A stretch of DNA of 64,000 nt from Pseudomonas sp. ICMP 561 (lineage in GTDB: Bacteria > Pseudomonadota > Gammaproteobacteria > Pseudomonadales > Pseudomonadaceae). The first letter of the stretch is position 1; every line of letters starts with the position of its first letter. Made by a program: the position numbers and the translations under genes. This document shows, in pieces, positions 18,521-49,227 of the stretch. Where the stretch lies: NCBI RefSeq assembly GCF_002699985.1, contig NZ_LKBT01000069.1, positions 170,964 to 234,963 on the forward strand, given 5' to 3'. The notes below the pieces were generated by a model, which made no database searches, had not been told where the DNA came from, and was given only the letters and a program-made list of their open reading frames with translations.

Positions 18521-18634
18521 TTTTAGCGGCAATATGCTAGCATTGTGCTGCGTTTAAACATCCGCTTACACTGGACTGGCTTCAAGATATGGCTCTCCAA
18601 GGCTACTCAAGTACTACCATTTCAGAGGTGCTCA

Positions 18635-19783: not shown

Positions 19784-19801
19784 AATTACGGATTCGATAA
19801 A

Positions 19802-20026
19802 ATGGGTCAACAGAAGCACTACCGAATCGATTATTTTCTGCATGGTGCATTCAAATCGTTCCACCTCTGTGCACCAGAGATGAACAGCGTTGAAGCATGG
19901 CATTGGGCGACAATCGATGCAGGCTTGAGTCAAATACCTAAGCTTCGGAATGACAACTCGCCAAAACTCACCAAACCTGCAGCAGAGCGCCTTGGAGTAT
20001 CCAAAGTCGAGTGGACACTCACCTGA
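19802..20026 (+). CDS. Small DUF6555-like protein
   Basis: 74 residues beginning MGQQKHYRIDYFLHGAFKSF and ending KLTKPAAERLGVSKVEWTLT. The layout resembles a small uncharacterised Pseudomonas family (recalled as DUF6555). Function is unknown. The ribosome site is weak. Possibly co-transcribed with the membrane protein upstream. Confidence 0.5.
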   Translation: MGQQKHYRIDYFLHGAFKSFHLCAPEMNSVEAWHWATIDAGLSQIPKLRNDNSPKLTKPAAERLGVSKVEWTLT

Positions 20027-20249
20027 CGCTTGCAAAGCGCAAAGCATGTCGAATTAAGCGCTGCCCTCCTAGCAGCGCCCTGTCCATAACGCGTGCGGAT
20101 TTCACCCAATCCCCCCAAATCAAGTCCAGCAGAGTGCCAACTGAGAACGGATGGTGCCACCACCGCATTTCTGCTCTTACCCCTGCAGGGGAACCCACGT
20201 TCCAGACACCACTCAGACCCTTACAGCATTCGACCGGAGACCGTAAACA

Positions 20250-22376
20250 ATGAGTGAAACCATTCGACATCCAATCCTATCGCCTCCTGATGAGCGAGCC
20301 CGAGCGCTGGTCGCTCAAATGACAGAAGACGAAAAATTCTCTTGGTTGTCTGGGCCGATGGCGATCCCTTTGGGAACGGTCGACAAACCCCTAGGCGCAT
20401 TGGGATCTGCTGCGTTCTACCCCGCTATTCCACGATTAGGTATTCCGGCAATACAACAATCTGACGCCAGCTTGGGCGTTGGTAACCTTGGCGATGTTCG
20501 GCCTGGCGATCACGCAACGGGACTGCCAAGCTCTCTACTACTCGGCGCAACCTTTGATCCCGACCAGGCATTTAAGTCTGGCGCTATGGTTGGTAAGGAA
20601 GCTAGACAGAAAGGATTCAACGTTCAACTTGCCGGTGGGGCCAACCTTATTCGAGAGCCCCGCGGCGGCCGGAATTTCGAGTACATATCAGAAGACCCTT
20701 TACTCACTGGCACCCTCGCCGGCCATTCGGTTGCGGGAATTCAATCCCAAAAGGTTGTCTCAACAGTCAAACATTTTGTCGCCAACGCTCAGGAAACCGG
20801 CCGAGTGATGGTCAGCTCAAACATCAGCGAGCCAGCGCTTCGTGAATCGGACTTGCTGGCTTTCCAGCTCGCGATTGAAATTGGGAACCCCGGTTCAGTC
20901 ATGCCAGGCTATAACCTGGTGAATGGCGAATATGCATCCGAGAACGCATTTCTGTTGAATACGGTGCTTAAGGGGGAATGGGCTTACCCTGGATGGGTTA
21001 TGTCCGATTGGGGAGCTACACACTCAACTGAGAAGGCCGTGCTTGCAGGTCTGGATGTTCAATCCGGCGCCAACCTCGACGACAACGATTATTTCGGTGA
21101 CGCGCTTCGTAAGGCTGTCAAGGAAGGACGCGTCCCGCAGGCAAGGATCGATGACATGGTGACGCGTATTCTGCGTAGCCTGATTTCCGTTGGTGCACTG
21201 GATGAAGATCTTAGCAATTCACTCCCCGTTGACTACAGCCAGCACAAGCTGACGGCACAGCGCGTGGCAGAGGAAGGCATCGTTTTGCTTAAAAACGCTG
21301 ACGATATGCTACCTCTACCTCAGCGCGCCAAAAGACTTCTCGTCGTAGGTGCCTATGCAGATCAAGGAGTGCTATGCGGAGGAGGATCATCTTCCGTTTC
21401 CCCTCTTGGGAGCCTGTCATTGCCTGGCGTTGATATCGTAGGGATGCAGGTTGCCAAGGTGTACCAACCCTCCTCCCCCCTCCAGGCTATTCGAGAAGAA
21501 AGCTGCGCGCAGCAAGTAGACTTCTTGGATGGCGCGGACGTGGCGCTCACAATCGCACAGGCGGCGATAGCGGATGCAGTCATCATCATTGCTCAGGAGT
21601 GGCGCTCCGAGGCGTTGGATGCAAAAGGCCTAGCATTACCTGACGATCAAGATGCGCTCATTGAGGCTGTCGCCCAAACAAATGCCAAGACTGTGGTAGT
21701 GCTACAAACAGGTGGCCCGGTACTCATGCCATGGCTCGACAAAGTTGGTGCCGTGGTGGAAGCCTGGTATCCAGGTTCTGGCGGGGCACCGGCTATTGCC
21801 GGTGTGCTTTTCGGGCGGATAAACCCCAGCGGACGCTTACCGTTGACTTTTCCGGCTGCTGAGTCTCAGCTGCCCAGACCTGAGCAGCTCGACCCAAACA
21901 CGACTACATCCAATCCCGGAATGCCGCGTAAGGGAGATATCATTCCTATCGATTACGACATTGAGGGCTCGGATGTAGGTTATCGATGGTTCGCAAGAGA
22001 ACGAATCACACCACTTTTTCCGTTTGGCTTTGGCCTGTCCTATACACAGTTTGAAATCACCAACCCAACCATCAGCGCCGGTGCGCCGTTCAACGTTTCT
22101 GCATGGGTAACCAATTCCGGCAAACGCGCAGGTGCGACCACTGTGCAAATCTATGTGGCCAAAGCAGGTGATGATGGTTTTGTTAAACGCCTCGCCGGCT
22201 TCAAGAAAGTCTTCCTCAGCGCAGGAGAACAAATTCAGGTGGATGTAACGCTAGAGCCTCGGATCTTTGCGCGTTACGCAGGTGACGGTTTTGCGACTGA
22301 AAGCGGTTCATATAAGGTTTGGGTGGCGCAGCATGCCCAGGATGAAGAGTTGGTCATTCACGCCCAGATACCATGA
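20250..22376 (+). CDS. Cytoplasmic GH3 beta-glucosidase
   Basis: A 708-residue GH3 enzyme without a signal peptide. The nucleophile Asp is in WVMSDWGATHS and the C-terminal loop is EWRSEALDAKGLALPDDQ. The C-terminal fibronectin-III-like domain (VTNSGKRAGATTVQIYV) is present; there is no PA14 insert. GGAG precedes the ATG. Together with the exported enzyme it suggests outside and inside steps of beta-glucoside use, though no sugar transporter lies between them. Confidence 0.9.
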   Translation: MSETIRHPILSPPDERARALVAQMTEDEKFSWLSGPMAIPLGTVDKPLGALGSAAFYPAIPRLGIPAIQQSDASLGVGNLGDVRPGDHATGLPSSLLLGATFDPDQAFKSGAMVGKEARQKGFNVQLAGGANLIREPRGGRNFEYISEDPLLTGTLAGHSVAGIQSQKVVSTVKHFVANAQETGRVMVSSNISEPALRESDLLAFQLAIEIGNPGSVMPGYNLVNGEYASENAFLLNTVLKGEWAYPGWVMSDWGATHSTEKAVLAGLDVQSGANLDDNDYFGDALRKAVKEGRVPQARIDDMVTRILRSLISVGALDEDLSNSLPVDYSQHKLTAQRVAEEGIVLLKNADDMLPLPQRAKRLLVVGAYADQGVLCGGGSSSVSPLGSLSLPGVDIVGMQVAKVYQPSSPLQAIREESCAQQVDFLDGADVALTIAQAAIADAVIIIAQEWRSEALDAKGLALPDDQDALIEAVAQTNAKTVVVLQTGGPVLMPWLDKVGAVVEAWYPGSGGAPAIAGVLFGRINPSGRLPLTFPAAESQLPRPEQLDPNTTTSNPGMPRKGDIIPIDYDIEGSDVGYRWFARERITPLFPFGFGLSYTQFEITNPTISAGAPFNVSAWVTNSGKRAGATTVQIYVAKAGDDGFVKRLAGFKKVFLSAGEQIQVDVTLEPRIFARYAGDGFATESGSYKVWVAQHAQDEELVIHAQIP

Positions 22377-33959: not shown

Positions 33960-34104
33960 CGTAGTGGAGCCGAATTGAACGGCATGAGTCGACCGGTGCT
34001 GCCGCCAACCTAAATGCCGCTACGCTAATGCCAAGCTTCGAGGACTATAAGCATCGGGGTGCTTTACCACCATAGCCTTTGGCCCATCGTTGAAAGGAAG
34101 CAAA

Positions 34105-35301
34105 ATGTCTACGTTGCACGTCTTTATCGACACAAATATTTTTCTTAATTTTTACTCATTCCCGGATGACCGGCTTGAAGTACTGGACGAACTCATTGCC
34201 CTCACTCAGCCGGGTCAGATCACTCTACACCTGCCCAAACAGGTGGAAAATGAGTTCAAGAGAAATCGTGAGTCCAAGCTTCAAGCTGCGATGTCGGAGT
34301 TCAACAATGCTAAGTTGCCCAGCAAGGTACCCAACCATATGCGGGGAACGGCAACGGCTCGCCAGTACGATGACGCAGTGAAGACGGTTCAGCAGGCCAA
34401 GGCTCTGCTGATTGCAAATGCAACGTCGCTCGCCCTGCGCAATGAGCTTGACGTTGATAGCAAGCTTGCCGATTTGTTCCGCAATGCTGCCCGGTACGCC
34501 GAAGACGACGAGTTGTACGAAAAGGCCATCGTCAGGATGAATAAGGGGAATCCACCAGGAAAGGGCGTGAGCGTAGGAGACCGATACAACTGGGAAACCT
34601 TGCTAAGACATGTTCCCGATGGAGATTTGTTCATCGTCTCCAAGGATGACGATTTTGTATCACCGCTGACCATGGATAAGGTTAGTCGGCCTCTCGCGTT
34701 CCTGTCGGATGAATGGGCCGATTTGAAAGGTGGCGGCAATCTGAGCATGTTCAGAAACATCAAAGATCTCGTGACCTACTACAAAAACCAGCTGGAGCAG
34801 CCCGACGCCGCTGCTCCACCAGAAGTCGTCGAAGTCGAATATGTTCCTCCCACTACCGCCAATCATATCGACCCGGCCGGTGCACTGGCCGTACCGATAC
34901 CTAAGGCTTCGCGAACAGAGAATGAGTCTGAAGCAGTCGTCCCAGAGGAACGCCTCATCCAGGAAGCAGCCAAGGTGCCTCGTCAGGAGGTTCTTGCCGC
35001 TATTCAAGACTTGGTTGAGAGCAGCTCCTTTGCGGATACTCACTCTGCAGTGAGCAAGCTTGCCCCCTATATGCCGTACCTTATGGCGGAGGACGCCGTC
35101 GAATTGTTTCGTGCAGCGGTCACCAACAGCCAAATCGGATGGATTATCTCCGACGATGACGTGGGCGACTTTTACTTGTCACTCCTCAATGAGTGGCCTT
35201 TGGCGATGGATTCTGAGTTGGCAGAGGCGCTTATCGACCTACTGGGGCTTTCGTCAGAGCCGACCCAGGAAGAACCGTTTGAAGAGTACCCACAACTCTA
35301 G
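34105..35301 (+). CDS. PIN-domain protein (DUF4935-like), candidate RNase
   Basis: 398 residues from ATG 34105 behind AAAGGAAG. The N-terminal PIN domain shows FIDTNIFLNFY (Asp9, Asn11), an acidic VENEFKRN at residues 47-54, and a second acidic cluster in LFIVSKDDDF near residue 180. The C-terminal half (after about residue 230) is acidic, begins with a proline-rich linker and is not recognised. PIN proteins are Mg-dependent RNases; a large stand-alone one in this setting suggests a toxin or defence effector. No antitoxin is clear next to it. Confidence 0.75.
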   Translation: MSTLHVFIDTNIFLNFYSFPDDRLEVLDELIALTQPGQITLHLPKQVENEFKRNRESKLQAAMSEFNNAKLPSKVPNHMRGTATARQYDDAVKTVQQAKALLIANATSLALRNELDVDSKLADLFRNAARYAEDDELYEKAIVRMNKGNPPGKGVSVGDRYNWETLLRHVPDGDLFIVSKDDDFVSPLTMDKVSRPLAFLSDEWADLKGGGNLSMFRNIKDLVTYYKNQLEQPDAAAPPEVVEVEYVPPTTANHIDPAGALAVPIPKASRTENESEAVVPEERLIQEAAKVPRQEVLAAIQDLVESSSFADTHSAVSKLAPYMPYLMAEDAVELFRAAVTNSQIGWIISDDDVGDFYLSLLNEWPLAMDSELAEALIDLLGLSSEPTQEEPFEEYPQL

Positions 35302-35310
35302 CCTGCCTGC

Positions 35311-35496
35311 ATGCGCGTCACCCCAGTTGGCATTTGTTCTCCTTTGTTTGAACCGAAGTATGGCATCAGCACTTACCCCTATTCATACGAGCAAGGGACA
35401 GACCCAGGCGAATATAGAATCAGCGAGACTTTTACGGCTCAACCATTCTTAATTCCAAGGCGCACCGAGGACGATGATTGGGTTGTGAAAACATGA
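35311..35496 (+). CDS. Small hypothetical protein
   Basis: 61 residues (MRVTPVGICSPLFEPKYGIS...RRTEDDDWVVKT), 9 bp after the PIN gene stop, same strand. No ribosome site and no family recognised; included because the close spacing suggests it may be translated with the PIN gene. Confidence 0.3.
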   Translation: MRVTPVGICSPLFEPKYGISTYPYSYEQGTDPGEYRISETFTAQPFLIPRRTEDDDWVVKT

Positions 35497-35552
35497 GGAA
35501 AAGAAGACCATTGGTAGCCTAGAGCCATCACCGACCTGCAAGGATGCTTTGT

Positions 35553-35882
35553 ATGCAAGCCAAAACGCTCAAATCCCTCATCGCTGATCACGGTGTTTCC
35601 TTCGACGCCGCAACCATTATGAACACGCTCGTCAAAACCGGTCATGCGGAGGTGTTCCAGTATCCCAGTACGACTGGCAGCGGCGTGATGAAGTCATTCA
35701 AGCGACTCACGGATAAAGCTGAACACATCGGAATCAACAAGGCATCAATGGGCCACCCGTTCAAAACTGAGCCAAAATTCTACGCCGAAACCTTCGCTGA
35801 TTTGCTCAATGTGGTGGTACGTCAACTCCACGAGGAGACAGTCGCGCTTGTAGCAGCGCGTGCAGAGCTAAAGGCTGTTTGA
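35553..35882 (+). CDS. Small hypothetical protein
   Basis: 109 residues from ATG 35553 behind AGGA. Helical, with TLKSLIADHGVSFDAATIMNTLVKTGHAEVFQYPSTTGSG near the N-terminus, resembling a winged-helix layout. Similar small proteins are common on Pseudomonas mobile elements; no function known. Confidence 0.5.
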   Translation: MQAKTLKSLIADHGVSFDAATIMNTLVKTGHAEVFQYPSTTGSGVMKSFKRLTDKAEHIGINKASMGHPFKTEPKFYAETFADLLNVVVRQLHEETVALVAARAELKAV

Positions 35883-36119
35883 TCACGGCAAACCAGTCTC
35901 CCCGATACTGTGTTGTAGGAGCTATCAGACTGCAGAACAACTAAGTGACGGCTACCAGAACACCTGCCGCAGCGAAGGCAATCTGCGTTCAGCTCTGCAA
36001 ACCACTAGCCTTGCAGGCCTTTCGCGATATTGACAGACAATCAACATGCCGGGCACATTCAGGCGGTACGCATGACTCTTGTGCATCGCAGATGCTAGAC
36101 ACCATGGCGGGTAGCCCCA

Positions 36120-36656
36120 ATGAAAGCTGAGAAACTTCCATCACCGCAATTTAAAATCGCATCGTCCACGGATCGACCTATGGACATGCAGTCCATTTTG
36201 AAAGCCTTCGTCGAAGCCGGTTGGGAATTTATATTCTATGCGGCCTATGAGCCACTGGCAGAGATGCTAAGCAACGTATATGTCCATGCTCCAAGCGCTG
36301 CTTCGCCAAGCGTAAGCTGGGAGTTGACGGTGGAACAGGCAGTCGCGGGAACAGCCATTACCGTTCGCGACAACGGTCAAGGGGTCTATGGCTCAGTATC
36401 CAAGCACATCAACAAAGATGTTTCCTCATTAGAAGCCATCATCTTAGCGATTAACCAACGCTCGTCAGCCCAGTATCGTGGGCAGGGCCTCAGCTCTATC
36501 TTGCGAGCTGTCCGCGGAGGGTCTATACATTCGTTCATTATCGAAAGCGGAGATCACTCCTTTAGCGTCACGGAGGACAGGCAATTCTCTAGCCGTGCCG
36601 CAAAGCTTCAAGGTACCCGGGTGCAGATCATCATGCCTTTGGGCCATGAGCAATGA
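36120..36656 (+). CDS. GHKL-fold ATP-binding protein
   Basis: 178 residues. The N-box (LAEMLSNVYVHA, Glu48 and Asn52), G1 box (VRDNGQG, residues 82-88) and G2 box (RGQGLSSI, residues 120-127) are those of a histidine-kinase-type ATPase; there is no dimerisation or receiver domain. Anti-sigma-factor-like kinases have this build. It overlaps the next gene by four bases, and that gene encodes a STAS-like partner. Confidence 0.75.
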   Translation: MKAEKLPSPQFKIASSTDRPMDMQSILKAFVEAGWEFIFYAAYEPLAEMLSNVYVHAPSAASPSVSWELTVEQAVAGTAITVRDNGQGVYGSVSKHINKDVSSLEAIILAINQRSSAQYRGQGLSSILRAVRGGSIHSFIIESGDHSFSVTEDRQFSSRAAKLQGTRVQIIMPLGHEQ

Positions 36657-36985
36657 GCCGCCCTATTGTGCTGCGCGAACTCGCTAAATTTCCTTGCGGA
36701 CGCACACCTATTGATGGCATTTACAGCGGGGAAACCTTCAGAAAAGAGCAACTACTGGTGGCCCTTAGGTCACCAGGCAATGTCACAGTGGATCTGAAAG
36801 GAACGGTTGCTCTCCCATCGTCCTGGCTGGAAGAGGCATTCGGGGGACTTGTGAGGGCAGATAAGTACACCGCGCATGAGCTCAACTCCCGGCTGATTTT
36901 GCAAACATCGAGTCCACTAATCAGCAATCAGATTTGGCGCTACATTGCGAGTGCGGAGGGTACACCTGATGTCCCCGACGACTGA
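36653..36985 (+). CDS. STAS-like (DUF4325-type) protein
   Basis: 110 residues. KFPCGRTPIDGIYSGETFRKE, then VTVDLKGTVALPSSWLEEAFGGL, follows the DUF4325 pattern of a central strand DL-G and a helix SFLDEAFG. Such proteins are usually fused or adjacent to a GHKL ATPase. ATG overlaps the ATPase stop (ATGA), and its end overlaps the next start. Likely partner-switch pair. Confidence 0.65.
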   Translation: MSRPIVLRELAKFPCGRTPIDGIYSGETFRKEQLLVALRSPGNVTVDLKGTVALPSSWLEEAFGGLVRADKYTAHELNSRLILQTSSPLISNQIWRYIASAEGTPDVPDD

Positions 36986-37463
36986 AATCCTTAAGGCAAT
37001 TGTGGTGGCGTTACTGGGTGGGTGGTTTGGAGCATGGATCACTTCGATCAGAGCAAAGTGGACAGCTTTCTCATCTGACTACTCAAAGAGACTAGAGCAG
37101 GGCTTTGTTCTGATTGACCAGCTGTCAGAGTGCTCGTGCCTGTGGTGGGAACGGATTGATCCTAGCGACAAGCTCAAAGTTAATCCCGGCTATATCGCTG
37201 GGCTTCAGTCACGTCTGACCACTTTCATTCAGTCCATGGATGACGACTACTCTGGGTTCAATACATCTGGGGTCGATCAGGCCTACCACGACTTTACTGA
37301 TGAATGCACAGGCGGCCTTTTCCCCGAGAAGGATGCGGTCGTTGCATCAGGCAAGTCCGCTGCCATCCTCAATAACGCCGAGCGCCTGAAGGCTCAACTC
37401 TTCGCAGTTCGCCGCAGAGACTACTCAATGCGCTTGAACATCAAAAAATCTAGAGCTCGGTGA
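36969..37463 (+). CDS. Hypothetical protein with N-terminal membrane anchor
   Basis: 164 residues from ATG 36969 behind GGAGG, inside the end of the STAS-like gene. A single N-terminal transmembrane helix (ILKAIVVALLGGWFGAWITS) is followed by a helical cytoplasmic part. No domain recognised. The three overlapping genes form an operon; the anchored protein may be its effector or sensor. Confidence 0.6.
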   Translation: MSPTTEILKAIVVALLGGWFGAWITSIRAKWTAFSSDYSKRLEQGFVLIDQLSECSCLWWERIDPSDKLKVNPGYIAGLQSRLTTFIQSMDDDYSGFNTSGVDQAYHDFTDECTGGLFPEKDAVVASGKSAAILNNAERLKAQLFAVRRRDYSMRLNIKKSRAR

Positions 37464-37609
37464 AACTGCGATCAGCGTGCCTCGGTAGCGTTAACCATCA
37501 CCTAACTCAGGCCAAGCGCTTCATGACTCAGATAACCAAGTTATTGACGAGACAGTCTTAGTTATTCAATCTGCCAAATCATCAGTCATTTCGCGCCCCC
37601 TCAATCTGA

Positions 37610-40600
37610 TCACTCCACCTCGGTGTCAGGCGCTCCTCGCTTGAGCGACTGAAGAAGCCGGACGAAACCTTTTGCCTGGGCAAAATAACGGTACAAGGCT
37701 GGGGTAGTGTCAGACAATTTAGAGACGGCCGTTCCCATCATCTTCTTCATTTCAGGAGAGTATTTGTAGGCAGCTATCTGCTCAGCCCGTGCATCGAAAA
37801 ACGAGGCCAAGGGTTGGTCGCCGCTTGTATGACGATTTAGATTGTCTAAAAACAGGATGATCCTTCCAACCTCCTGCGGATTAGACGGCTGGATATCGGG
37901 GATCAAATGACCATACTTGGCCAACAGCACTGCAAAGTCATCAGGTTCCACTGATACTGCGAACATAAGATTGCGCAGGCGAATCCCAACCACGCCCCTC
38001 TGCTGCGCGTCCTGGGCCTCCAAGAGTGCCTCTATGATCGCAAACTGTGCATTACCCCATGGCGCAGTCGTTTGTGCATTTGCGATGGCGGTGAGCACTT
38101 CGATGAGGGCATCAGTGACGGCAGATATGCTAGCGATAGTAAGGTTCTCGCGGACAATCGCGCGTATGACAGCCAGGTGCTGCTTCGCGCCGGCTGAAAT
38201 GATCTGAACCCAGCTCCCTTGAGTCATTTCCCCGCCAGTGAGGGACTTGATCACAGAATCTCGCACCTTCGGCAGCGCCTCTTCTCCTGATTCCATCACG
38301 CGATCAATCAGCAGAGCATCGGCTGTCAGAATGTCACGGCAGTGCTCTTCTATACGGATATCCCACGGCAACAGCCACTCCAGGATCTCGTCTTCTGTCA
38401 GGCTGTACGGTTCCAATGCCTCGGTCAGCGCGCTGAAATTCTTGGCTACCCAATCACATTGCAGCGCACCAATCTTCTTGCCCTCAACAAGGTATGCAAG
38501 GTATCCCGCGATGGAGCTACCCACCTCCTCAGAGGTTAATAGGGCAAACAGAAGCTTGCTCGAAAGCAGAGCATTTCCGAGCGATCTGAATATTTCGGAC
38601 TCCAACACCCCATCCAGGTCTTCGAGCAGGGACAACGACTCCGCGTCGGCTTGGCGAATATAAGTGACGGCCGCCACAGCCTTTATCAAAGGGCTTGCGT
38701 TATTGGCGAGCAACGTCGAGAGAGCGTTCAATACTGTCCGATCAATTGTTGTCGCCAATGCCAAGCCCACCACGGCGCCCTCCTCCTCACCGGCCGCACC
38801 AGTAAACGCCGCCAGGGTTGTGACATCCACGGGCCCAACTCCCCCGACGATTCCATTGCGAACTTTGCGTCCTGCATAAACCCATTCGAGCGCAGGCACT
38901 ACCGAGTCTGCCGGCAAAGGTGATGGTGAAAGGAGATGTTCCGAACATGAGGCGAGCTGAAGATTGGCGCTGGGCAGGGCAGCATCTTCGAGGGTGAAAT
39001 CGTGCCGACTGATGACCAATAGACCTTCCATATCAGGCAGCAGATGCATCAAGTGTTCTGCCCGCTTCAAAACCATTCCTCCAACTACATTGTCCTGAGC
39101 GTGCAAGTACAAATCGTATTCCTGGAGCAGCGCCCGAGCCTGTTCGAGGGTTTCCTTGTCATAGCTGGCATTGAGGCATTTCAGCAGCTTTGCTCTCAAA
39201 TTCGTGCCGTGAGCTTCGAGCAACTTCCCGTCCAACCCCAACCCACGACAGTGCTGGAAGGCCTCATAAAATTCTTTGGAACCCGATTTGGACTCTCCGA
39301 AAAGATCCAGCTGCCCCACATTCAAAAGCCCTAGCAACGAAGCAGGCCATTCCCCAGAGTGTGCTTGATGCGCTGCTGCGATGGTCGGAAGTAGCGATGC
39401 CAATACCGGACGCTGTGCAAGTAACCGTTTCACCGCATCGGAGAAGCCGAAAAGCGAAGTGAGCCTCACCAGGGCGTCCGAATCGTTGTCTGAAAAGGCC
39501 TCCATTAGCGGGGTATCAAGCAGCTCAGCGATGGCGATATCGCCCGTTGTGAGGTAGTGGATCTGGAGAAACTGAATCTGCCAACCAGTCTCCATCGTAA
39601 TACCGATGACCGATGTCAGCAGCCCCTTAGTATCCGTGACTAGCCCGGCTTCTACCTCGCCCACCTCCTTCGCATAATCTGTCGAGAACCCATCTGTGCG
39701 CAGAATCTCAACGAGCGAATACTCTGCGTACTTGCACAGCAGCAGATGTGCAGCGATCGCGAGCAAGCTGATCTCTTCGCCTACGACAAGGGCCGTGGTC
39801 GCTATGTCGTTGATGAATTTTTTCTGCAGCCTTGGCGTTACGAGACTGCTGGCCATAGGGCTATGGCGCTGCAGGAACTGTGCACATTGCTCGATAGTGC
39901 TTGGGTTAACGGCGATTCCGTCAGTGGCTGGGAACGTGTGATTCCATAGTTGACGGAAACCGTCCTTCCAACCAGAGGTGATTACCGGCGGTGCCCTGAA
40001 AACGACCGGGAATTTTTTCGCTATGAAATCCTTGGCGTCATACCTGCGGTCACCCTCAGCTTTAAGGTAAGTTGCGACCTTGGTAGAGCAAAATGGCACG
40101 ATTACTGTCAGATTTTCTGCCTTCCCGGCCACGGCGATAAAGATCTCAAGGTCACTCCAGACCGATCGCAAGCTCTCTTTCGGCAGCCGGTCTAGGTTGT
40201 CCAAGATGACGACGAAATGCTTATCCGCTAACACTCGCAGTTGCTCAATCAGCGTCTGCTTCAGATCCAGCGGCGACACCTCTTTGCTGACCTCGATTTT
40301 TTCATTGATGTGGTCGTGAGTAGACCCCTTGAAAAGGCTGAGCAGGCTCCATCGCTCTCCACCTATCTTTACTTTCCAATGCCAAATTTTCGCCAGCAAT
40401 AACACCAGCACCGGACTTAGAAGCGATACGGTGTGGATTGTGAGAAACGCAGAGCTGACATCCTGCGAGGTTCGGGTCAGCGCGAAAATCTCGCGAAATG
40501 AGGTCGCGGAAAAAAACAGGCTAGCGACGAGCGCCATGGCCCAAGCACTCACGCGGCTCGTTGTATTTTTGCTGTACTCGAACAACCGGCCAAGCGCTCG

Positions 40601-40948
40601 GTCTCGGGACTGCTTCAGGGTTCTGGCCTCTTTCCCGGCCGCAGGAAGCCCTTTAAGCGCCTCATCGGTGAACAGTTCGATGAAGTTACTTTTGGTAGAG
40701 CCTTGGTAATTCTGCTCGCAGTCAAAGAACCAGACCCGGTAATGAGGATCTGCCGCCGTCAATTTCGCATCCAACATATTCAAGATCGAGCTCTTCCCGG
40801 AGCCAAACTCACCGTCAAGGCCTATGACCTTGGACGGAGTCTCGCTGAGGATGTGCCGCGAAATAGCGCTCGCGACCTTGTCGTGACTGCTCCCGGGGAA
40901 CACATCCTGGGATGCCGGTTGCTCTGAGTGGAAATTGATTACCTGCAT
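37610..40948 (-). CDS. KAP-family P-loop NTPase with membrane helices, candidate phage defence protein
   Basis: 1112 residues. Walker A is GEFGSGKS (residues 46-53) and Walker B VVILDNLDR (246-254). Two transmembrane helices (about 133-153 and 168-188) are inserted between them, the hallmark of KAP NTPases (PifA family). The remaining 800 residues are helical repeats without a recognised enzyme domain. KAP proteins include PifA, which blocks phage T7. It converges with the GHKL/STAS operon. The start ATG 40948 is followed by MQVINFHSEQP. Confidence 0.8.
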   Translation of the reverse strand: MQVINFHSEQPASQDVFPGSSHDKVASAISRHILSETPSKVIGLDGEFGSGKSSILNMLDAKLTAADPHYRVWFFDCEQNYQGSTKSNFIELFTDEALKGLPAAGKEARTLKQSRDRALGRLFEYSKNTTSRVSAWAMALVASLFFSATSFREIFALTRTSQDVSSAFLTIHTVSLLSPVLVLLLAKIWHWKVKIGGERWSLLSLFKGSTHDHINEKIEVSKEVSPLDLKQTLIEQLRVLADKHFVVILDNLDRLPKESLRSVWSDLEIFIAVAGKAENLTVIVPFCSTKVATYLKAEGDRRYDAKDFIAKKFPVVFRAPPVITSGWKDGFRQLWNHTFPATDGIAVNPSTIEQCAQFLQRHSPMASSLVTPRLQKKFINDIATTALVVGEEISLLAIAAHLLLCKYAEYSLVEILRTDGFSTDYAKEVGEVEAGLVTDTKGLLTSVIGITMETGWQIQFLQIHYLTTGDIAIAELLDTPLMEAFSDNDSDALVRLTSLFGFSDAVKRLLAQRPVLASLLPTIAAAHQAHSGEWPASLLGLLNVGQLDLFGESKSGSKEFYEAFQHCRGLGLDGKLLEAHGTNLRAKLLKCLNASYDKETLEQARALLQEYDLYLHAQDNVVGGMVLKRAEHLMHLLPDMEGLLVISRHDFTLEDAALPSANLQLASCSEHLLSPSPLPADSVVPALEWVYAGRKVRNGIVGGVGPVDVTTLAAFTGAAGEEEGAVVGLALATTIDRTVLNALSTLLANNASPLIKAVAAVTYIRQADAESLSLLEDLDGVLESEIFRSLGNALLSSKLLFALLTSEEVGSSIAGYLAYLVEGKKIGALQCDWVAKNFSALTEALEPYSLTEDEILEWLLPWDIRIEEHCRDILTADALLIDRVMESGEEALPKVRDSVIKSLTGGEMTQGSWVQIISAGAKQHLAVIRAIVRENLTIASISAVTDALIEVLTAIANAQTTAPWGNAQFAIIEALLEAQDAQQRGVVGIRLRNLMFAVSVEPDDFAVLLAKYGHLIPDIQPSNPQEVGRIILFLDNLNRHTSGDQPLASFFDARAEQIAAYKYSPEMKKMMGTAVSKLSDTTPALYRYFAQAKGFVRLLQSLKRGAPDTEVE

Positions 40949-42402: not shown

Positions 42403-43077
42403 CTAATTAAGTGCGCTCTCCTTATGTAATCTTTTTCGCATTCTCTCTAACTCTCTAAGTTCATCTATTGTAGATATTTTCTCCCAAGGCCCATAAAAAC
42501 CAGCCTCCGGATACTCTGAAGACTCTTCACCCTCTAAAACGGTTATATATATATCGGATGCCTGCCCAACCATTCCATCTATTATTTTTATAAGAGTCAA
42601 AACGCCTTTCCGAAGTGACTCAAACTCATCGTCCGACATCTCGCGCTTTGACGAATCTAACTGACGAACACCTAAATCAACGCTTCGAATCTTCTCTTTC
42701 AGTAATAAATTCTGCGACTCCAAACTTGCATTGCGGATCCGCAGAGCCTCTATATCAGTGATAACACTCCCTGGCAATGTTCCAGACCTTGCCTCAACCG
42801 CCATGAAATCTTCAAGTATTTTACGATAGCTTATATTTCTTAAGAGGGTTACATGGCTTACGGGTTTGCACAGCTCATCACGTTCCGATTCGCTTTTATT
42901 GGCATGAACCTTGGCCTCAAACTCCGTTACCAGCTTGGAAACATCCCTAGCCAATCGGGTAACATTTACGTACTTAGCGTTAGATAACACAACCAGAGCC
43001 CGTTTGATGAAATCTACGCGTTGTTGCCGATGATTCTCTCTATATTCATCGAATGTGTCCTTCCTCGGGTTCAGCAT
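42403..43077 (-). CDS. gmtX: Gamma-mobile-trio protein GmtX
   Basis: 224 residues. The N-terminus has a helix-turn-helix-like stretch (YVNVTRLARDVSKLVTEFEA) and a central coiled coil (ALRIRNASLESQNLLLKEKI, about residues 110-130). It overlaps the gmtZ end by 32 bp. The identity rests on position and size: a third small gene directly after two tyrosine recombinases, as in the published GMT modules. Its biochemical role is not known. Confidence 0.7.
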   Translation of the reverse strand: MLNPRKDTFDEYRENHRQQRVDFIKRALVVLSNAKYVNVTRLARDVSKLVTEFEAKVHANKSESERDELCKPVSHVTLLRNISYRKILEDFMAVEARSGTLPGSVITDIEALRIRNASLESQNLLLKEKIRSVDLGVRQLDSSKREMSDDEFESLRKGVLTLIKIIDGMVGQASDIYITVLEGEESSEYPEAGFYGPWEKISTIDELRELERMRKRLHKESALN

Positions 43078-46000
43078 CTTTTTCCTCCACGTGGCTGTGC
43101 CCGATCCGCTTCGTAATCAACAAATCGGGTCTCTCGGGCACCAGCGGCTTGGCTGCCGCCTGGCTAATCCTGAAGACGTCCATAACGTCCATAGCCCCTG
43201 AATTTACCATACTGCCAATTTGTGAGGCTAACGCTACGCCTGGGGTATGCTCGCTAACACTCAGAACGCTTTCGAGATCACCCTCACGCATTAGCAGCAC
43301 AGCTCGGAGATAGGCGAATTTCGTATCCAGTTCAGAGCTAGTGGCATCAGGAAAATTCTGAACGTCGATCAGCCGCTTTACCACATACTCAGCATCAGTT
43401 AGCTCGACACGTTTGAAATGCTCGAGCAATTCATCCTTCCTGGCAACGAAGAAACCTGAATGCTGGCCGCCAAGCGCCATTTGGTACAACTGCTGCTCAA
43501 TCGCTTCACACGAATACGCCTCCCGTGCATAGGTATCGTGATCTTGATTCAAGTTTTCAATCACTTGGCGGTCAGTAGCGCTGCGCTTGAGGTTTTTATA
43601 GTGCTTAAGCTTACGAAGCACTGCGGCCATTTCTTCCTTGAATTTGTCCTTTTCCGCGCTGATGGCAGGGAGATGAGAGACGCCTCGGATGGCATATTGA
43701 CACAGTCCGCAAGGCCTTCCCGCGCCAAGCTCCTCAATAACCTCCTTAGGGCACTTGTTGTTAAAGGGACAGATATGGGTCGGGTTGAAGGCAAACCCCG
43801 TCCCCTTCTTCGCCCTCATGACTTCAATACCGGTTTGGTCTTCCTTCACACCGATTAAGCTAATCAAACCGTGCGTTTTAATAGCTTTCACGGGATCCGC
43901 CTTAATGTCTGCCGCCAAGCGTTCATTCAGCTTGATGACTGCGGCGGCCAACTCGGGAGCATCCGCCGCATTGAGACTGTCTGTGTTTTTTAGCAAATAG
44001 TTAGCAAGAAGCCTCTGATGGCTCGGAAGGTCATCCTCTTCAAAAACAGTGTAGTACCAAACGTGAGGCTCGGTTTGGCCTGTCATGTACTGCCCAACGA
44101 TCCAGGCAGGCAAGAACCTGACAGCCTCAGAGACAAATCCAGCACGAAGACCATGTGGTGTGTAATCACTGACAAGATCATCCACAGTAATCTTTGAGAA
44201 ATACTCTTCAGTGAACTCGACAGCAGTTTCTTCGCCCCACTTGGAGGCTCTCACCACCACAAGCTCCGTGATTTGCTCATCCTTCAACTGGCAATGAATA
44301 AAATACTGCAAAATCGACAACATCACCGGATAAAATCGATAATTCGCCCACCCTTCAGCTTTTTCCAAAGGCATCCTAAACAAAGGGCGAAACTGCCCAA
44401 ACTTAGAGTCGATTTTCATGCCATACCAAAGTTTACCCTCGTAGCCAGGTGCAGTGCAGCGGGCATACCATTTTCGTTGCCTATCCAAAACAGCCATAAT
44501 GTGACGCCCAACGATGGCTGTCCACTCTCCATGCGATTTGTCGCTACTGACAAAAAGTGGAGCAAGCTGGCTTTTGCTACTACGATCCAACATACAATCA
44601 TAGCGATCCTTATCGAGCCAGATTATGTGTTGTTGACGCAGTCCCGTTTCGCACATCAGCTGGGTTAAGCGAACATGATTCGGCACTACACGCTGCTGCA
44701 GGCGCCCATCAAGTTCATATTCAAGTATCCGATAAAAACGAGGAATGAACTTCAGCGCATAAATTTTTCCATCACTATAAAAAATAGGACAGTAGTTCAG
44801 CTTAGTCTGATCAATGATCGTCAAAGGGCCATCCCCCTTGCCCCACATTGACTGCCACTCTGAAGACTCCTGTAATTCTGCGAGACTTGGCTGGTATAGT
44901 TTTCCACGAACTAGACCCGGCATAACACCGTCGGCCATAAGATTCAGGTGCATCACCAAGTATTCCAGAGAGTACAGAATGCTCAAAAACGCACCAAAGT
45001 AAGCACGCGGAATAGGCCGCTTAACGGTTCCGTTGCGCCTTTTGACGGGGGGGTAACATGCCGACGAAAAATTGTTACTGAAACGATCCGCCTTCGCGAG
45101 GGTAAATCGATTTTCCTCTACCCACTCGCAGTATTCGTCCGCGCAGAGCACGCGGGCGTACCAAGTATCATTGCCCCACTTATTAAACTTTGCGAATTCT
45201 TCCAAAAACCTCAAGAAAGTCATGGGTGGGACTTTAGTGAATACGAGAACCCCATTCACGAAATTTGCCTCGCGGGTAAAATACAAGGTGCAGTCAAAAT
45301 CATTCAGACTGGCCGGATAGTCTCGCAGATGCCCGTCCCGAGCTAAGAAGAAATTCGGCAGATAAGTCGATAGGTATGCCAGAATGAGATTCAACAGAAG
45401 TATATAATTTTTTTCACGCTGTAAGCGCTTGGATTTTACATAAGAGCGAAAGGTTTCGTCCAAATGAGCGCAGAATTTTGCAACCTTTTTTGGCAATGCC
45501 GAGTATAACTTTTTTGAACCCTCCGCCTTATCGAACATACTTTTCAACCTATAAGGCTTCACCACATCAGCAAAAAGTGAACTAAGATGTAAGAGTCTCT
45601 TACCGTTGCCATATTCTATCGCAAGGCTTAAAGCCCTATCAGAAGGGGATGGGGCCTCAGGTTTCTTTCGACTTTCTCGATCAATCTTTTGAGCCTCTGC
45701 ATTTTGACGCCTTACCGTGCTCACCGCCTCATCGACCATTTGACGAGCACTCGCATCCTCACCAGCGATAAAATGCAGCATCTGGAACACACGATACTGT
45801 ACCAATGGTTTCTTACGACCCGTACCTTCGCGGTAAACAGCCATGCAATATTCTGGTGTTAAATCACCTGCGCAGTAAACCTGACCACTGAGCAGCAGCT
45901 TTGTCCAGCGGGTGTACAGTCTTTTGTTGAGATCGCGTTCCTTCGCCGTTGCATGGAGTTCATCATAGCGCAAGTGCTCTCTAATACTCTTCAGCAGATC

Positions 46001-46426
46001 AATTTCCCCCAAGGAAATAACCTTATCAAGTACGGAGTCCAAATTGGTTACACTTCTCACTGATAACGGAAGAACTACCTGCTTTCTCAGCCACATGAGG
46101 GTGAGTACCATTTTAAAAAAATTCGCCATTGCGACTTCTTGTTTGGGATTGCACAGCCTGAATTCCGGATGAACGTCGGCGAATTTCGCGTTGGGATCGT
46201 CAGTACAACAAGCAATCAGCGCCGCAAAATCTGCCCGCTTCCACCCTAGATAGTTGATCACCGAGGATTTGAAGAAATTGTTCAGGTAATATGTCACATT
46301 GGGCAATGTCCCAGACGAATACTGGCGATACAACTCAATCACCACCGTATATGCCTCATGAAACGCACGGCCGATCTGCGTAGTTGGGATTAGCCATTTC
46401 ACGGTATTCTTATTAAAATAACTCAC
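43046..46426 (-). CDS. gmtZ: Gamma-mobile-trio integrase GmtZ (large tyrosine recombinase)
   Basis: 1126 residues from GTG 46426. Tyrosine-recombinase residues are readable: Arg in box I (CETGLRQQHIIWL, near residue 592), HGLRAGF (H-x-x-R, near 758) and HVWYYT (His/Trp and Tyr, near 787). A Cys cluster (CPFNNKCP...CGLC, about 887-912) may bind zinc. Size, catalytic set and place between gmtY and gmtX fit GmtZ. It carries a long N-terminal part of unknown function. Confidence 0.78.
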   Translation of the reverse strand: MSYFNKNTVKWLIPTTQIGRAFHEAYTVVIELYRQYSSGTLPNVTYYLNNFFKSSVINYLGWKRADFAALIACCTDDPNAKFADVHPEFRLCNPKQEVAMANFFKMVLTLMWLRKQVVLPLSVRSVTNLDSVLDKVISLGEIDLLKSIREHLRYDELHATAKERDLNKRLYTRWTKLLLSGQVYCAGDLTPEYCMAVYREGTGRKKPLVQYRVFQMLHFIAGEDASARQMVDEAVSTVRRQNAEAQKIDRESRKKPEAPSPSDRALSLAIEYGNGKRLLHLSSLFADVVKPYRLKSMFDKAEGSKKLYSALPKKVAKFCAHLDETFRSYVKSKRLQREKNYILLLNLILAYLSTYLPNFFLARDGHLRDYPASLNDFDCTLYFTREANFVNGVLVFTKVPPMTFLRFLEEFAKFNKWGNDTWYARVLCADEYCEWVEENRFTLAKADRFSNNFSSACYPPVKRRNGTVKRPIPRAYFGAFLSILYSLEYLVMHLNLMADGVMPGLVRGKLYQPSLAELQESSEWQSMWGKGDGPLTIIDQTKLNYCPIFYSDGKIYALKFIPRFYRILEYELDGRLQQRVVPNHVRLTQLMCETGLRQQHIIWLDKDRYDCMLDRSSKSQLAPLFVSSDKSHGEWTAIVGRHIMAVLDRQRKWYARCTAPGYEGKLWYGMKIDSKFGQFRPLFRMPLEKAEGWANYRFYPVMLSILQYFIHCQLKDEQITELVVVRASKWGEETAVEFTEEYFSKITVDDLVSDYTPHGLRAGFVSEAVRFLPAWIVGQYMTGQTEPHVWYYTVFEEDDLPSHQRLLANYLLKNTDSLNAADAPELAAAVIKLNERLAADIKADPVKAIKTHGLISLIGVKEDQTGIEVMRAKKGTGFAFNPTHICPFNNKCPKEVIEELGAGRPCGLCQYAIRGVSHLPAISAEKDKFKEEMAAVLRKLKHYKNLKRSATDRQVIENLNQDHDTYAREAYSCEAIEQQLYQMALGGQHSGFFVARKDELLEHFKRVELTDAEYVVKRLIDVQNFPDATSSELDTKFAYLRAVLLMREGDLESVLSVSEHTPGVALASQIGSMVNSGAMDVMDVFRISQAAAKPLVPERPDLLITKRIGHSHVEEKDAEPEEGHIR

Positions 46427-46559: not shown

Positions 46560-47987
46560 CTATGGCTGTTTGTTAGCCGACTGCTCAAGCAGGACGATTT
46601 GCTGCTTCAAGTGCTCAATCTGCACCTTTGCCGTATTGAATCCACCGTCACGCATCCGCATGAGATTCATTGCTGCCATTGATGCGTGGAGCATGTGGCC
46701 GTCTTTACGGGCATACCTCTGCACAGAGGTTGCCGAAGAATGACCCAGTACCTTTTGCACAAAGCCGAGATCAAATCCGAAGGTACCTGGCCTAAAGGGG
46801 TTTGGACAATGGTTATGCAGGTAGTACGCATACATGTGACGAAGAGAATGGAAACCATAGCTCTCCCCCGTCAACGCCTTAGCGGCAGCGTTGAAACGCT
46901 CCCACACGGCCTGATAGGAAGACGGTATACCCTCGCCATTCAGAAGGTTCCTGAACAAGAATTGATGTGAGACAGGCCTGTGGCGGGAAGCCTCAAGCGA
47001 ACGCTGCTCGGTGATATACAGATCGAGGTTGAACCAGAAGTGAGACGCGAAGGGTTCAATCAGGAAAGTCTCTGGAGTAGAGCGCCCCTTGTGTGGGAGC
47101 TTACTGATATCCACATCAGTCATAAATTTCGCAAGCTGTTCGACGCGAGTGTTTGGGTCGATGATCAAAACACTATTATCGAGCGGACTATCCTCGAAAA
47201 GTACCAAATCCGACATAAGCATTGTAAGTGCTTCTGATACTCGGCAACCGCAAGCGGCAATCAATGACCACAGAGTTTTGTCTCTAAGGCAAGTGCTGCT
47301 TTCGATGAGCTTCACGCACAGATCTATAGGGAAGACTTTTTCGTCTCCACCATTGATATCGGTATTTGCGATAGTCGAGGGTTTTGCGGTCGTCGCTAGG
47401 CCAACCAATCGGATTCGCTTCACCCCACCAGCGATGCATCCAGCTAACCAACTCTTGTTGCCGATGGCAGCTCTGACCTTCATTGGAGCCTCAGCGTACC
47501 GAGAGGTAATCGATGGCAACGCTGTGACCATAGTCTCACCTAAGTACCCAGTAGCTTGAAGCTGAAGCATCGCCTTTCTGAACTGCTCACTCGCATCAAT
47601 GAAGTTATTAACAGCCGCAGTATTTTTGCGTAAGGAGCTTCCACCCATTTTACGGTTACCCAGCACCTTCGCTGCAGACCGGCTCAACTCGACGCTGCTA
47701 TTAGTACCAAAAATGAGAAAGTTTTCGTAACCATCAATCGCCTCAGATAACAAAAACGGCGTCAAACCGCCTCTGAGCTCGCTGACGACCTGGATGTACT
47801 GAATGAACAAGAGCACTGCATGCCCGTAGGCTTTAACGGTGTTCCATTTCTTACGCTTGGATAGCTGAAATATCCAGTTGTCGTAGAACTCACTCATAGC
47901 TGGATCTGAGCACAGCAGACGGTACGTTGGTTTGCCGGAGCGGAAGGTTTCGAAGATCGTGATGGGATGGTGAACCATTGTAGCCAT
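46560..47987 (-). CDS. gmtY: Gamma-mobile-trio tyrosine recombinase GmtY
   Basis: 475 residues from ATG 47987 behind AAGGGAAGG. Core-binding N-terminal helical domain, then catalytic domain: Arg in GCRVSEAL (near 247), HSLRHMYA (near 379), LGHSSATSVQRYA with the nucleophile Tyr (near 423). It lies 133 bp upstream of gmtZ and is the closest recombinase to the tRNA-Ser attachment region. A run of TGCAAC motifs precedes it. Confidence 0.8.
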   Translation of the reverse strand: MATMVHHPITIFETFRSGKPTYRLLCSDPAMSEFYDNWIFQLSKRKKWNTVKAYGHAVLLFIQYIQVVSELRGGLTPFLLSEAIDGYENFLIFGTNSSVELSRSAAKVLGNRKMGGSSLRKNTAAVNNFIDASEQFRKAMLQLQATGYLGETMVTALPSITSRYAEAPMKVRAAIGNKSWLAGCIAGGVKRIRLVGLATTAKPSTIANTDINGGDEKVFPIDLCVKLIESSTCLRDKTLWSLIAACGCRVSEALTMLMSDLVLFEDSPLDNSVLIIDPNTRVEQLAKFMTDVDISKLPHKGRSTPETFLIEPFASHFWFNLDLYITEQRSLEASRHRPVSHQFLFRNLLNGEGIPSSYQAVWERFNAAAKALTGESYGFHSLRHMYAYYLHNHCPNPFRPGTFGFDLGFVQKVLGHSSATSVQRYARKDGHMLHASMAAMNLMRMRDGGFNTAKVQIEHLKQQIVLLEQSANKQP

Positions 47988-48045
47988 GAGCCTTCCCTTC
48001 TGATCGACTGTCTTCGGCTGACGCACTCGCGTTCCGCCGCAAAGG

Positions 48046-48113
48046 TGCAACAACCTGTTGCATTGGCAAACACAATGCAACAACGCGCAACATAATGCAA
48101 CTACTCAGTTGCA
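48046..48113. repeat. TGCAAC motif cluster between gmtY and the tRNA
   Basis: Five exact TGCAAC (two inverted) and one CGCAAC in 68 bp. Three direct copies at 48076, 48086 and 48096 are exactly 10 bp apart; TGCAAC/GTTGCA pairs at 48046/48057 and 48096/48108 form inverted repeats. A seventh copy lies at 48341 on the other side of the tRNA. Likely binding sites for a recombinase or gmtY regulator. Confidence 0.65.
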
Positions 48114-48163
48114 CATTTGATAACAGAATGAGGTTTTATTTTCTGCTCGTCAAAAAATGAGGA

Positions 48164-48195
48164 CGAAAAAAAGGGCCTAGATTGCTCTAGGCCCT
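48164..48195 (-). terminator. Terminator of the tRNA-Ser transcript
   Basis: AGGGCCTAG (48172-48180) pairs with CTAGGCCCT (48187-48195). On the minus strand the stem is followed by seven or more T. It lies 16 bp after the tRNA 3' end. Confidence 0.85.
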
Positions 48196-48210
48196 TCATT
48201 CATCGATGTT

Positions 48211-48301
48211 TGGCGGGAAACCAGGGATTCGAACCCTGGGTACGCTATTAACGTACGCCGGTTTTCAAGACCGGTGCATTCAACCACTCTGCCAATTTCC
48301 C
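48211..48301 (-). tRNA. tRNA-Ser (anticodon TGA), probably island-borne
   Basis: 91 nt. The acceptor stem GGGAAAT/GTTTCCC pairs with one G-T wobble; discriminator G and an encoded CCA follow. The anticodon loop CTTGAAA gives TGA, the T-arm CAGGG-TTCGAAT-CCCTG is intact and a long variable arm (GTACGTTAATAGCGTAC) marks class II serine. The sequence differs clearly from the truncated serine tRNA upstream. Confidence 0.93.
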
Positions 48302-48365
48302 GTGGTGCTCTTGACGCTTTTGGCGGTATGGCTCGTAACGTGCAACAGAGAGTATCCTTATATAA

Positions 48366-48433
48366 GAACTCTAGGACCTGTTACAGTCGGCAGTTTTCAA
48401 GACTGCTGCCTTAAACCACTCGGCCATACTTCC
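48366..48433 (-). pseudogene. Truncated tRNA-Ser (TGA), 5' 68 nt
   Basis: GGAAGTA acceptor strand, GCCGAGTGG D-arm, GCAGT-CTTGAAA-ACTGC anticodon arm (TGA) and variable arm are intact, then the sequence breaks after GAGTTC in the T-loop and continues TTATATAAGG. No 3' T-arm or acceptor strand follows. The text matches what I recall of the resident Pseudomonas tRNA-Ser(UGA). The break marks the island edge. Confidence 0.8.
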
Positions 48434-48451
48434 GTTTGCATTGCGGGCGCC

Positions 48452-48479
48452 ATAATACCGGAATGAAACACGCTGTCAA
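48452..48479 (-). promoter_or_regulatory. Sigma-70 promoter of the tRNA-Ser unit
   Basis: Minus strand TTGACA (48474-48479), 16 bp, TATTAT (48452-48457), then a GC-rich GGCGCCC discriminator typical of stable-RNA promoters. It would transcribe the truncated tRNA and then the complete one to the terminator at 48164. Confidence 0.8.
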
Positions 48480-48555
48480 ACTCTCTGGGTGGCTGATTTC
48501 AAGTCGTCTGTTATGATCTTTGCAACTTCACATTTCAACCACCAGGAGCTTCGCC

Positions 48556-49227
48556 ATGCGCGAACAGGATTACGCAGTTAATAACGGCGTGCAGGCCGAT
48601 CAGCTAGAGGTTAGCCGCGTCCTGCGCAACACATACGGCCTTCTGGCTCTGACCCTCGCTTTCAGCGGTGTCATGGCTTTTGTCGCGCAGCAGATGCGCG
48701 TTGGCTACCCAAACATTTTCGTGGTGCTGATCGGTTTCTACGGTCTGTTCTTCCTCACCAATAAACTGCGCGATTCGGCGTGGGGCTTGGTGTCGGCGTT
48801 CGCGTTGACCGGTTTCATGGGTTTCCTGCTGGGCCCGATCCTCAACCGCTACCTGGGTATGCAGGGCGGCGCTGAAGTGGTCAGCTCGGCATTCGCCATG
48901 ACGGCATTGGTGTTCGGTGGTCTGTCGGCTTACGTGCTGATTACCCGCAAGGACATGAGCTTCCTCGGTGGCTTCATCACCGCTGGCTTCTTTGTTCTGC
49001 TGGCAGCGGTGCTGGCGAGCATGTTCTTCCAGATCAGCGGCCTGCAGTTGGCGATCAGCGCTGGCTTCGTGCTGTTCTCGTCGGTCTGCATTCTGTTCCA
49101 GACCAGCGCGATCATTCACGGTGGCGAGCGTAACTACATCATGGCGACCATCAGCCTGTATGTATCGATCTACAACCTGTTTGTCAGCCTGTTGCAGATC
49201 TTCGGTATCATGAGCCGCGACGACTAA
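48556..49227 (+). CDS. BI-1/YccA-family inner-membrane protein
   Basis: 223 residues with seven hydrophobic segments and the Bax-inhibitor-1 pattern (FALTGFMGFLLGPIL, LISRKDMSFLGGF-like). The E. coli homolog YccA modulates FtsH proteolysis. ATG 48556 follows AGGAG. First core gene right of the tRNA locus; it precedes tusDCBE, the usual Pseudomonas order. Confidence 0.92.
   Translation: MREQDYAVNNGVQADQLEVSRVLRNTYGLLALTLAFSGVMAFVAQQMRVGYPNIFVVLIGFYGLFFLTNKLRDSAWGLVSAFALTGFMGFLLGPILNRYLGMQGGAEVVSSAFAMTALVFGGLSAYVLITRKDMSFLGGFITAGFFVLLAAVLASMFFQISGLQLAISAGFVLFSSVCILFQTSAIIHGGERNYIMATISLYVSIYNLFVSLLQIFGIMSRDD

Follow-up and report, generated by a model that had tools for sequence, protein, structure and literature searches.

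Has an island that broke the tRNA-Ser(UGA) gene of its host also supplied the gene that now stands in its place? The question is raised by positions 48211-48479 of a 64,000-nt stretch of Pseudomonas DNA, which was analysed at full length and is called the window. It lies on contig C68 of a 6.31-Mb draft genome of 69 contigs (G000). The sequence-only reading of this locus had proposed that the resident gene was destroyed by the island and that a replacement was supplied under the same promoter, and this turned out to be largely right. The reading developed below, to which a probability of about 0.9 is given, is that the module of an integrative island recombines its attP with the T-loop of the only tRNA-Ser(UGA) gene of the cell, and that the island copy replaces this gene behind the resident promoter.

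Anatomy of the near junction

All features of the junction read on the minus strand. The resident promoter (-35 TTGACA, 16-nt spacer, -10 TATTAT; 48452-48479) matches the consensus at 11 of 12 positions and was the sole promoter-like site detected in 48100-48560, where 0.5 would be expected in shuffled sequences. It now reads into the island. Behind it lies the 5' piece of the resident tRNA-Ser(UGA), exactly 68 nt long (48366-48433), which ends with GAGTTC in the T-loop and is identical (68/68) to the beginning of the tRNA of the relative G050. The following 64 nt of other sequence (48302-48365) form the near end of the island, which comprises the right half-site of attP (TTATATAAGGA) and the leader to the island tRNA, with a GTTGCA motif at +19. 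A complete island-borne tRNA-Ser(UGA) of 91 nt follows (48211-48301); it was called by ARAGORN and scored 55.4 bits with the Rfam tRNA model, and it differs from the rejoined resident tRNA in 23 of 93 aligned columns. A terminator-like hairpin, of which 0.5 would be expected in shuffled sequences, is located 3' of it (48170-48197). The promoter, the tRNA cut in its T-loop, the unrelated spacer and the divergent second gene with its own terminator, all named in the sequence-only reading, were thereby recovered.

In 28 of the 29 relatives read first, the same promoter leads to a single intact 88-nt tRNA, the exception being G098. Within the genus sample, 11 further genomes show the layout of the window, as do three named Pseudomonas records, so that it is not an arrangement due to chance.

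Far end and extent of the island

The missing part of the resident gene was expected at the far end of the island and is indeed present there. The 3' remainder of the resident tRNA, GAATCTCTATGCTTCCGCCA, together with its terminator, is located at C68:121680-121699, on the same contig and 97.6 kb away. Joining the two flanks in silico yielded a tRNA identical to that of G050 (88/88), and across the rejoined site the sequence aligns collinearly with this relative, which has no island at the locus (94.7% over 957 bp). The island is thus delimited to C68:121700-219328. Positions 1-48365 of the window belong to this 97.6-kb element, the far end of which lies outside the window. Both junctions and the displaced 3' piece bear out that the resident copy is broken and that a whole island tRNA gene has been placed behind the resident promoter.

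The junction sequences also decide against ordinary tRNA-site integration, in which the island end restores the resident tRNA and the extra tRNA is incidental cargo. Islands of that kind probably do use the same tRNA, as seven extra copies spanning the anticodon arm to the 3' end were found in six of 99 genomes with an intact resident gene (G019, G073, G047, G036 twice, G062 and G029), and these are probably the far ends of conventional restoring islands. The copies (L079-L085) are located about 15 to 520 kb from the resident gene or on another contig. At the locus of the window, however, the sequence after the cut is not a tRNA 3' half, the true 3' half sits at the far end, and the resident tRNA is not rebuilt from element sequence as in classical integration. 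Ordinary restoring integration is hence refuted here and retains next to no credibility.

A decayed 3' half of a native-type tRNA-Ser(UGA) was noticed on another contig of the same genome (G000:C18:13394-13413; L070/L179). An older restoring island may have left it as a relic of its far end.

The cargo was surveyed in the half of the island that is covered by the window. A Pfam scan of 20 further window ORFs, all of them among the larger ones, revealed families of catabolism, transport and regulation, glycosidases and ATPases; none of these 20 matched a structural phage gene. Window positions 1029-12671 encode a LigB dioxygenase, a hydrolase, an FAA hydrolase, an acetaldehyde dehydrogenase, an HMGL-like aldolase, and MFS and OprD transporters, which together look like an aromatic meta-cleavage pathway. 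Two glycosidases of family 3, one of which has a PA14 domain, were observed in the stretches 15441-22376 and 34090-40948, together with a PIN-domain protein, a KAP NTPase of 1112 aa and one ORF with a sub-cut-off HATPase match.

Attachment site

The crossover core RGTTC, located in the T-stem/T-loop of the tRNA (48366-48370, minus strand), is common to attB and attP. At the far end TCCTTATAGAAG directly precedes GGTTC, and jointly with the near end given above it forms an imperfect palindrome. Its score in the window is 11/15, which was reached by 6 of 2000 shuffled sequences. The corresponding palindrome score was reached by 5 of 2000 in G015, and in G098 the palindrome is weak (58 of 2000). 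The attP is approximately (T/A)CCTTNNATAAG-RGTTC-TTATNNNAGG and palindromic. The near-end consensus of 13 elements reads TTATCt.AgG....TcccAG.TGCAt; it takes in 13 of 15 sequences, G338 and G247 having been missed by the range searched, and includes G226 and P. palmensis, which are near-certainly one genome (over 4518 bp, G226 and the P. palmensis BBB001 record are 100% identical).

The common core extends from RGTTC to about 7 bp (about 5-7 bp), and the tRNA is not rebuilt by it. In G299 the variable R base, which precedes GTTC, is that of the element, whereas most junctions have the host base; R is thus probably part of the exchanged overlap or borders on it. Five GTTGCA/TGCAAC motifs are clustered in 48046-48113, between the terminator and the recombinase gene, and three occur within 160 bp of the far att site, compared to 86 in a 164-kb stretch of the contig. 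These clusters at both island ends may represent arm-type sites. The exact GTTGCA motif was missing near the junction in four listed elements (L200, L203, L205 and L206).

A three-gene module adjoins the island tRNA

Three genes follow the island tRNA and its terminator in the window, and all of them read in the same direction (minus strand). The first one codes for a tyrosine recombinase (46560-48083; ORF of 507 aa, likely start ATG at 47987) with a Pfam Phage_integrase match at 2.4e-13. Residues R281, H412, R415, H448 and Y457, which we take to be the catalytic residues, are invariant across four homologues. The second gene (43046-46426) codes for a protein of 1126 aa and the third (42403-43077) for one of 224 aa; the second stands beside the recombinase gene, and the third follows in the same order, in L197, L198, L199, L187 and L152. 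The module proteins are about 69-75% identical to those of the window in P. vlassakiae RW4S2, P. sp. URMO17WK12:I11 and P. palmensis BBB001.

Searches with family models returned no recognised family for the 1126-aa protein, and a PDB sequence search was likewise empty. Comparison of its profile with the recombinase alignment gave a probability of 0.1%, that is, no relation was found, and its AlphaFold model has a mean pLDDT of 39. By eye, an H758xxR761...Y791 pattern was spotted in this protein and is given as a lead only. No Pfam or NCBIfam family scored above cut-off with the 224-aa protein. A second, distant relative of the recombinase is encoded elsewhere in the genome (G000:C10:58228-59466; L230; E 4e-42), and no tRNA was found in the 4.2-kb locus around it.

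The island tRNA is the only tRNA-Ser(UGA) detected in the genome

The draft genome was scanned as a whole for other tRNA-Ser(UGA) genes. Among 60 tRNA matches (150 of 172 candidates scored), the island copy was the only tRNA-Ser(UGA), and no second copy was found in the draft. The 11 matches of at least 82 nt were typed as Ser UGA, GGA, CGA or GCU, Tyr or Leu. This single-copy status holds for the genome of the window, the one carrier with a full tRNA scan. In P. fluorescens SBW25, tRNA-Ser(UGA) is predicted to be an essential type, and one serTGA is listed for the wild type (PMC7661048). The island tRNA-Ser(UGA) is presumably essential, and since a single copy was found and there is such a prediction for SBW25, the element tRNA is predicted to be required for a viable integration.

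No donor of the island tRNA was found among the plasmid and phage-collection matches listed. The best-listed plasmid match reaches 86.8%, on a megaplasmid of Pseudomonas amygdali (NZ_CP031226.1:651607-651697). In the phage collection, the best-listed full-length match (95.6%) belongs to an unannotated fecal record (MT837188.1:500-590).

Recurrence in Pseudomonas

A recombinase profile, built from four elements of which three are within the sample, identified 10 carriers among the 398 genomes of the genus sample (E 1e-80 or better). All 10 carriers display a broken resident tRNA and a complete tRNA-Ser(UGA) at the same locus and behind the same promoter, and in all 10 the displaced 3' piece is present behind a CCTTNNATAAG-like half-site. 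The T-loop is cut at the same core in each of them, as would fit catalysis by a tyrosine integrase. Four carriers (G247, G258, G299 and G338) were found via the recombinase alone, and of the 518 profile positions the match of G152 spans just 195. A pattern search located the far ends in G126, G152 and G299; its pattern also matched other tRNA-like ends at two mismatches. The module adjoins the tRNA in five of the 10 carriers (G000, G226, G247, G258 and G338); it is located elsewhere on the island in G015, G098, G152 and G299 and on another contig in G126.

The layout is unlikely to result from misassembly: in eight of the 10 carriers, one contig contains both the near junction and the displaced 3' piece, and three of these (G015, G098 and G299) are single-contig assemblies. 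They are on separate contigs in G126 and G247. Island lengths range from about 42 to 154 kb where a single contig contains both ends (eight carriers), these values being approximate as some near-end coordinates were rounded.

Clean cases amount to at least 12 of 398 genomes: seven from a strict junction pattern, the genome of the window and the four found via the recombinase. This is a lower bound, because the strict pattern misses the window and other native variants. When the three profile-source genomes were removed, the junction set (five genomes) and the recombinase set (seven genomes) had three genomes in common (hypergeometric P 3.4e-5); with these genomes kept, P was 1.1e-9. Two genomes, G065 and G091, show a clean near junction and no recombinase match. 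The far end was not found in G065; that of G091 is damaged, with a 3' piece lacking the normal half-site. In a sample of 143 genomes from across the class, the recombinase family was detected at E 1e-30 in one, the window's own, and in none outside the genus.

Two further observations concern additional 3' pieces. In G226, a second tRNA-Ser(UGA)-like 3' piece with a terminator and no attP half-site is located on another contig (G226:C32:11733-11757; L258). In G015, three tRNA 3' pieces lie within 11 kb (G015:C1:3693597, 3698690 and 3704864), two of them resembling the restoring type and one being of the replacing type; they apparently represent islands stacked at one tRNA.

Apparent fixation of island-type tRNAs and second-round integration

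The resident position was read at 99 loci of the genus, a set which leaves out the seven extra-copy loci and in which L075 duplicates L037. A native-type tRNA, meaning one that is not of the island types, was found at 76 loci, island type A at 21 and another island type at one (G098), G001 being kept as its own class. The type A core is exact in 21 of 99 genomes, where it occurs as one copy per genome at the tRNA-Ser(UGA) locus; G001, with three mismatches, would be the 22nd.

The presence of both tRNA types at one locus of the genus could also be explained by an ancestral tandem pair of tRNA-Ser(UGA) genes behind one promoter, of which either copy was lost in different lineages and the first was hit by the island. 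The relatives were inspected for such a double arrangement in the absence of an island, and at each of the 99 loci ARAGORN called one tRNA-Ser, never two, within the 700 nt read. The leader between the cut and the tRNA, moreover, shows the conservation of an element end. The island tRNA is observed on the near side and the resident 3' piece on the far side, a placement not to be expected from insertion into a tandem pair; on this ground the ancestral pair is rejected as very improbable.

The distribution of type A was mapped on a quick-method tree that is based on a single neighbouring gene, which is yccA-like (672 columns), and that could be distorted by linked recombination. Type A requires eight changes on this tree, at least four of which are forced by well-supported branches. 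G050, the sister of the window's genome, is native, and one clade of 12 genomes is wholly type A, with the tRNA at the same distance in all 12.

Of the eight 68-nt resident remnants that were measured, five are identical to intact native tRNAs and three (G068, G081 and G085) have decayed by 8, 11 and 20 edits. This decay bears on whether the broken 5' half could still work as a hybrid tRNA completed by the first bases of the island. A hybrid was called by ARAGORN in three genomes, namely P. palmensis/G226 (L199, L202, L232 and L243), G152 (L206 and L240) and G299 (L242), but not in the window, in L197 or L198, or in eight other sample genomes with the layout. The T-loop of the hybrid would read TTCTTAT instead of TTCGAAT. 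Given this change, the decayed remnants and the lack of a call in the window, a functional hybrid is highly unlikely.

Native-type terminators were recognised by eye behind island-type tRNAs in G085, G020, G043, G052, G017 and G031, the last three of which belong to the 12-genome clade. Behind the tRNA, 9 to 30 kb were read in G085, G020, G043 and G052 and showed no homologue of the module. Such a combination is what the loss of an island with its tRNA kept would leave, and the lone island-type tRNAs are likely to be leftovers of lost islands. Remnants and terminators of these apparently fixed lineages were judged by eye, with one leader (G030) inspected in the 12-genome clade.

In two carriers, the island has cut a type A tRNA gene, whose displaced 3' piece is at the far end of the island in G338 and on another contig in G247. 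These sequences record second-round targeting of an earlier island-type tRNA. The island tRNA-Ser of both genomes (L244 and L245) ends with CCG and not CCA, so that its mature end would need a CCA-adding enzyme.

A replacement ratchet is the probable outcome. Each integration would swap the only tRNA-Ser(UGA) for the island copy under the promoter of the host, some swaps would become permanent on loss of the island and the new tRNA would again be a target; thus about one fifth (21-23 of 99) of the tRNA-Ser(UGA) genes sampled in the genus would be of mobile-element origin, with several independent gains. Another possibility is that replacement was selected as a trap, with the tRNA end of the island being lost by precise excision alone. 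The single tRNA-Ser(UGA) is in line with it, as is the island tRNA being complete even beside decayed remnants. On the other hand, precise excision should be harmless, and the native-type terminators behind island-type tRNAs suggest that an island can disappear apart from its tRNA. Selection as a trap is rather doubtful and complements the replacement of the resident gene by the island copy without being a substitute for it.

Proposed mechanism

The mechanism is drawn from what can be read in the sequences: the anatomy of both ends, the short core, the single tRNA-Ser(UGA) detected, the recurrence of the layout, resident remnants in perfect and in decayed state, island-type tRNAs at which no island end can be recognised, and second-round targeting. 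The tyrosine recombinase, with its two companion genes, would join the palindromic attP to the T-loop of the host tRNA-Ser(UGA), the module being the likely catalyst of this recombination. Upon integration, the 5' 68 nt of the resident gene would be kept at the near end and its 3' end carried to the far end. With a shared core of about 5-7 bp the resident tRNA would not be rebuilt; integration would therefore destroy the resident gene, so that a complete tRNA has to be supplied by the island. The latter, located 64 nt inside the near edge, is oriented such that integration would set it behind the resident promoter, from which it is presumably expressed and then charged, and it would become the sole source of tRNA-Ser(UGA) of the cell. 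In the modelled circle of the window, the best promoter-like match upstream of the tRNA is 9/12 (0.4 expected in shuffled sequences); in that of G015 it is also 9/12, and none was found for G098.

Precise excision would restore the resident gene. Should the island decay instead, the resident half would degenerate and the island tRNA would stay as a permanent housekeeping gene, which may be the target of a later island. The acceptor stem varies from host to host, and a possible advantage for the element is that a whole tRNA need not pair with it.

At a single locus of one genus, fresh insertions can be read alongside remnants that have decayed, replacements that are apparently fixed, and second-round hits. 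This record suggests a concrete route by which horizontal transfer could replace a single-copy translation gene. The same loci are natural replicates for asking whether a foreign tRNA costs the host, and whether a whole tRNA frees the element from matching the acceptor stem of each host.

Comparison with known systems

The Gamma-Mobile-Trio (GMT) is a three-gene module led by a tyrosine recombinase in gammaproteobacterial islands. By NCBIfam cut-offs, the module of the window does not belong to it, as the GmtY model gave 31.5 bits against a cut-off of 340 and the companions matched no model above cut-off. GInt islands carry a ginABCD operon of three integrases and a small HLH protein; the module of the window has three genes and one recognised recombinase. 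Classical tRNA-site islands and phages are reportedly treated by Williams (2002).

According to section 18 of PMC8371274, integration into a tRNA gene reconstitutes an intact tRNA. The classical elements described there likewise use a tyrosine recombinase, the T-stem-loop sublocation and expression from the resident promoter. They rebuild the resident tRNA, however, while the island of the window supplies a whole different gene. Among Pseudomonas elements, prophages 02 and 06 of strain Pf-5 also have att sites in tRNA-Ser (anticodon, V- and T-loops); these are 60-104 bp long, which would be typical of restoring elements, and no replacement tRNA is mentioned in the excerpts of PMC2647930.

The nearest known system is the tRNA-dependent lysogeny of actinobacteriophages such as Fionnbharth, LeBron, Gaia and others (Guerrero-Bustamante and Hatfull, 2024; PMC10865867). 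For mycobacteriophages, that paper reports from experiment that the core is short, that the tRNA is not rebuilt and that the cognate phage tRNA is required. Both systems have in common a tyrosine integrase, an attB in a host tRNA gene, a short core and a tRNA of the same isotype (in the window's genome). They differ in the target, which is tRNA-Lys, Ile2 or Leu in the hosts of these phages and tRNA-Ser for the Pseudomonas islands, and in the position of the element tRNA. The Fionnbharth tRNA, which has a strong promoter of its own, overlaps with an oppositely oriented protein gene, and that of Gaia is located downstream of Int (PMC10865867). The island tRNA instead sits at the attP edge behind the resident promoter. 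The prevalence outside actinobacteriophages is said to need investigation, and the discussion names as a possible case the prophage Lj965 of Lactobacillus johnsonii, in which the tRNA is likewise not rebuilt and a cognate tRNA is carried (PMC10865867). Lj965 is a prophage and from another phylum, and this discussion is silent on promoter capture or fixation.

A literature search, which is not proof of absence, returned no account of such tRNA replacement in islands or in Pseudomonas. What is apparently new comprises its occurrence in Pseudomonas islands, the three-gene module, the position of the tRNA, which adjoins the attachment site and is preceded by the resident promoter, and the recurrent, apparently fixed replacement. 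The island family breaks the tRNA-reconstitution rule, as some actinobacteriophages do.
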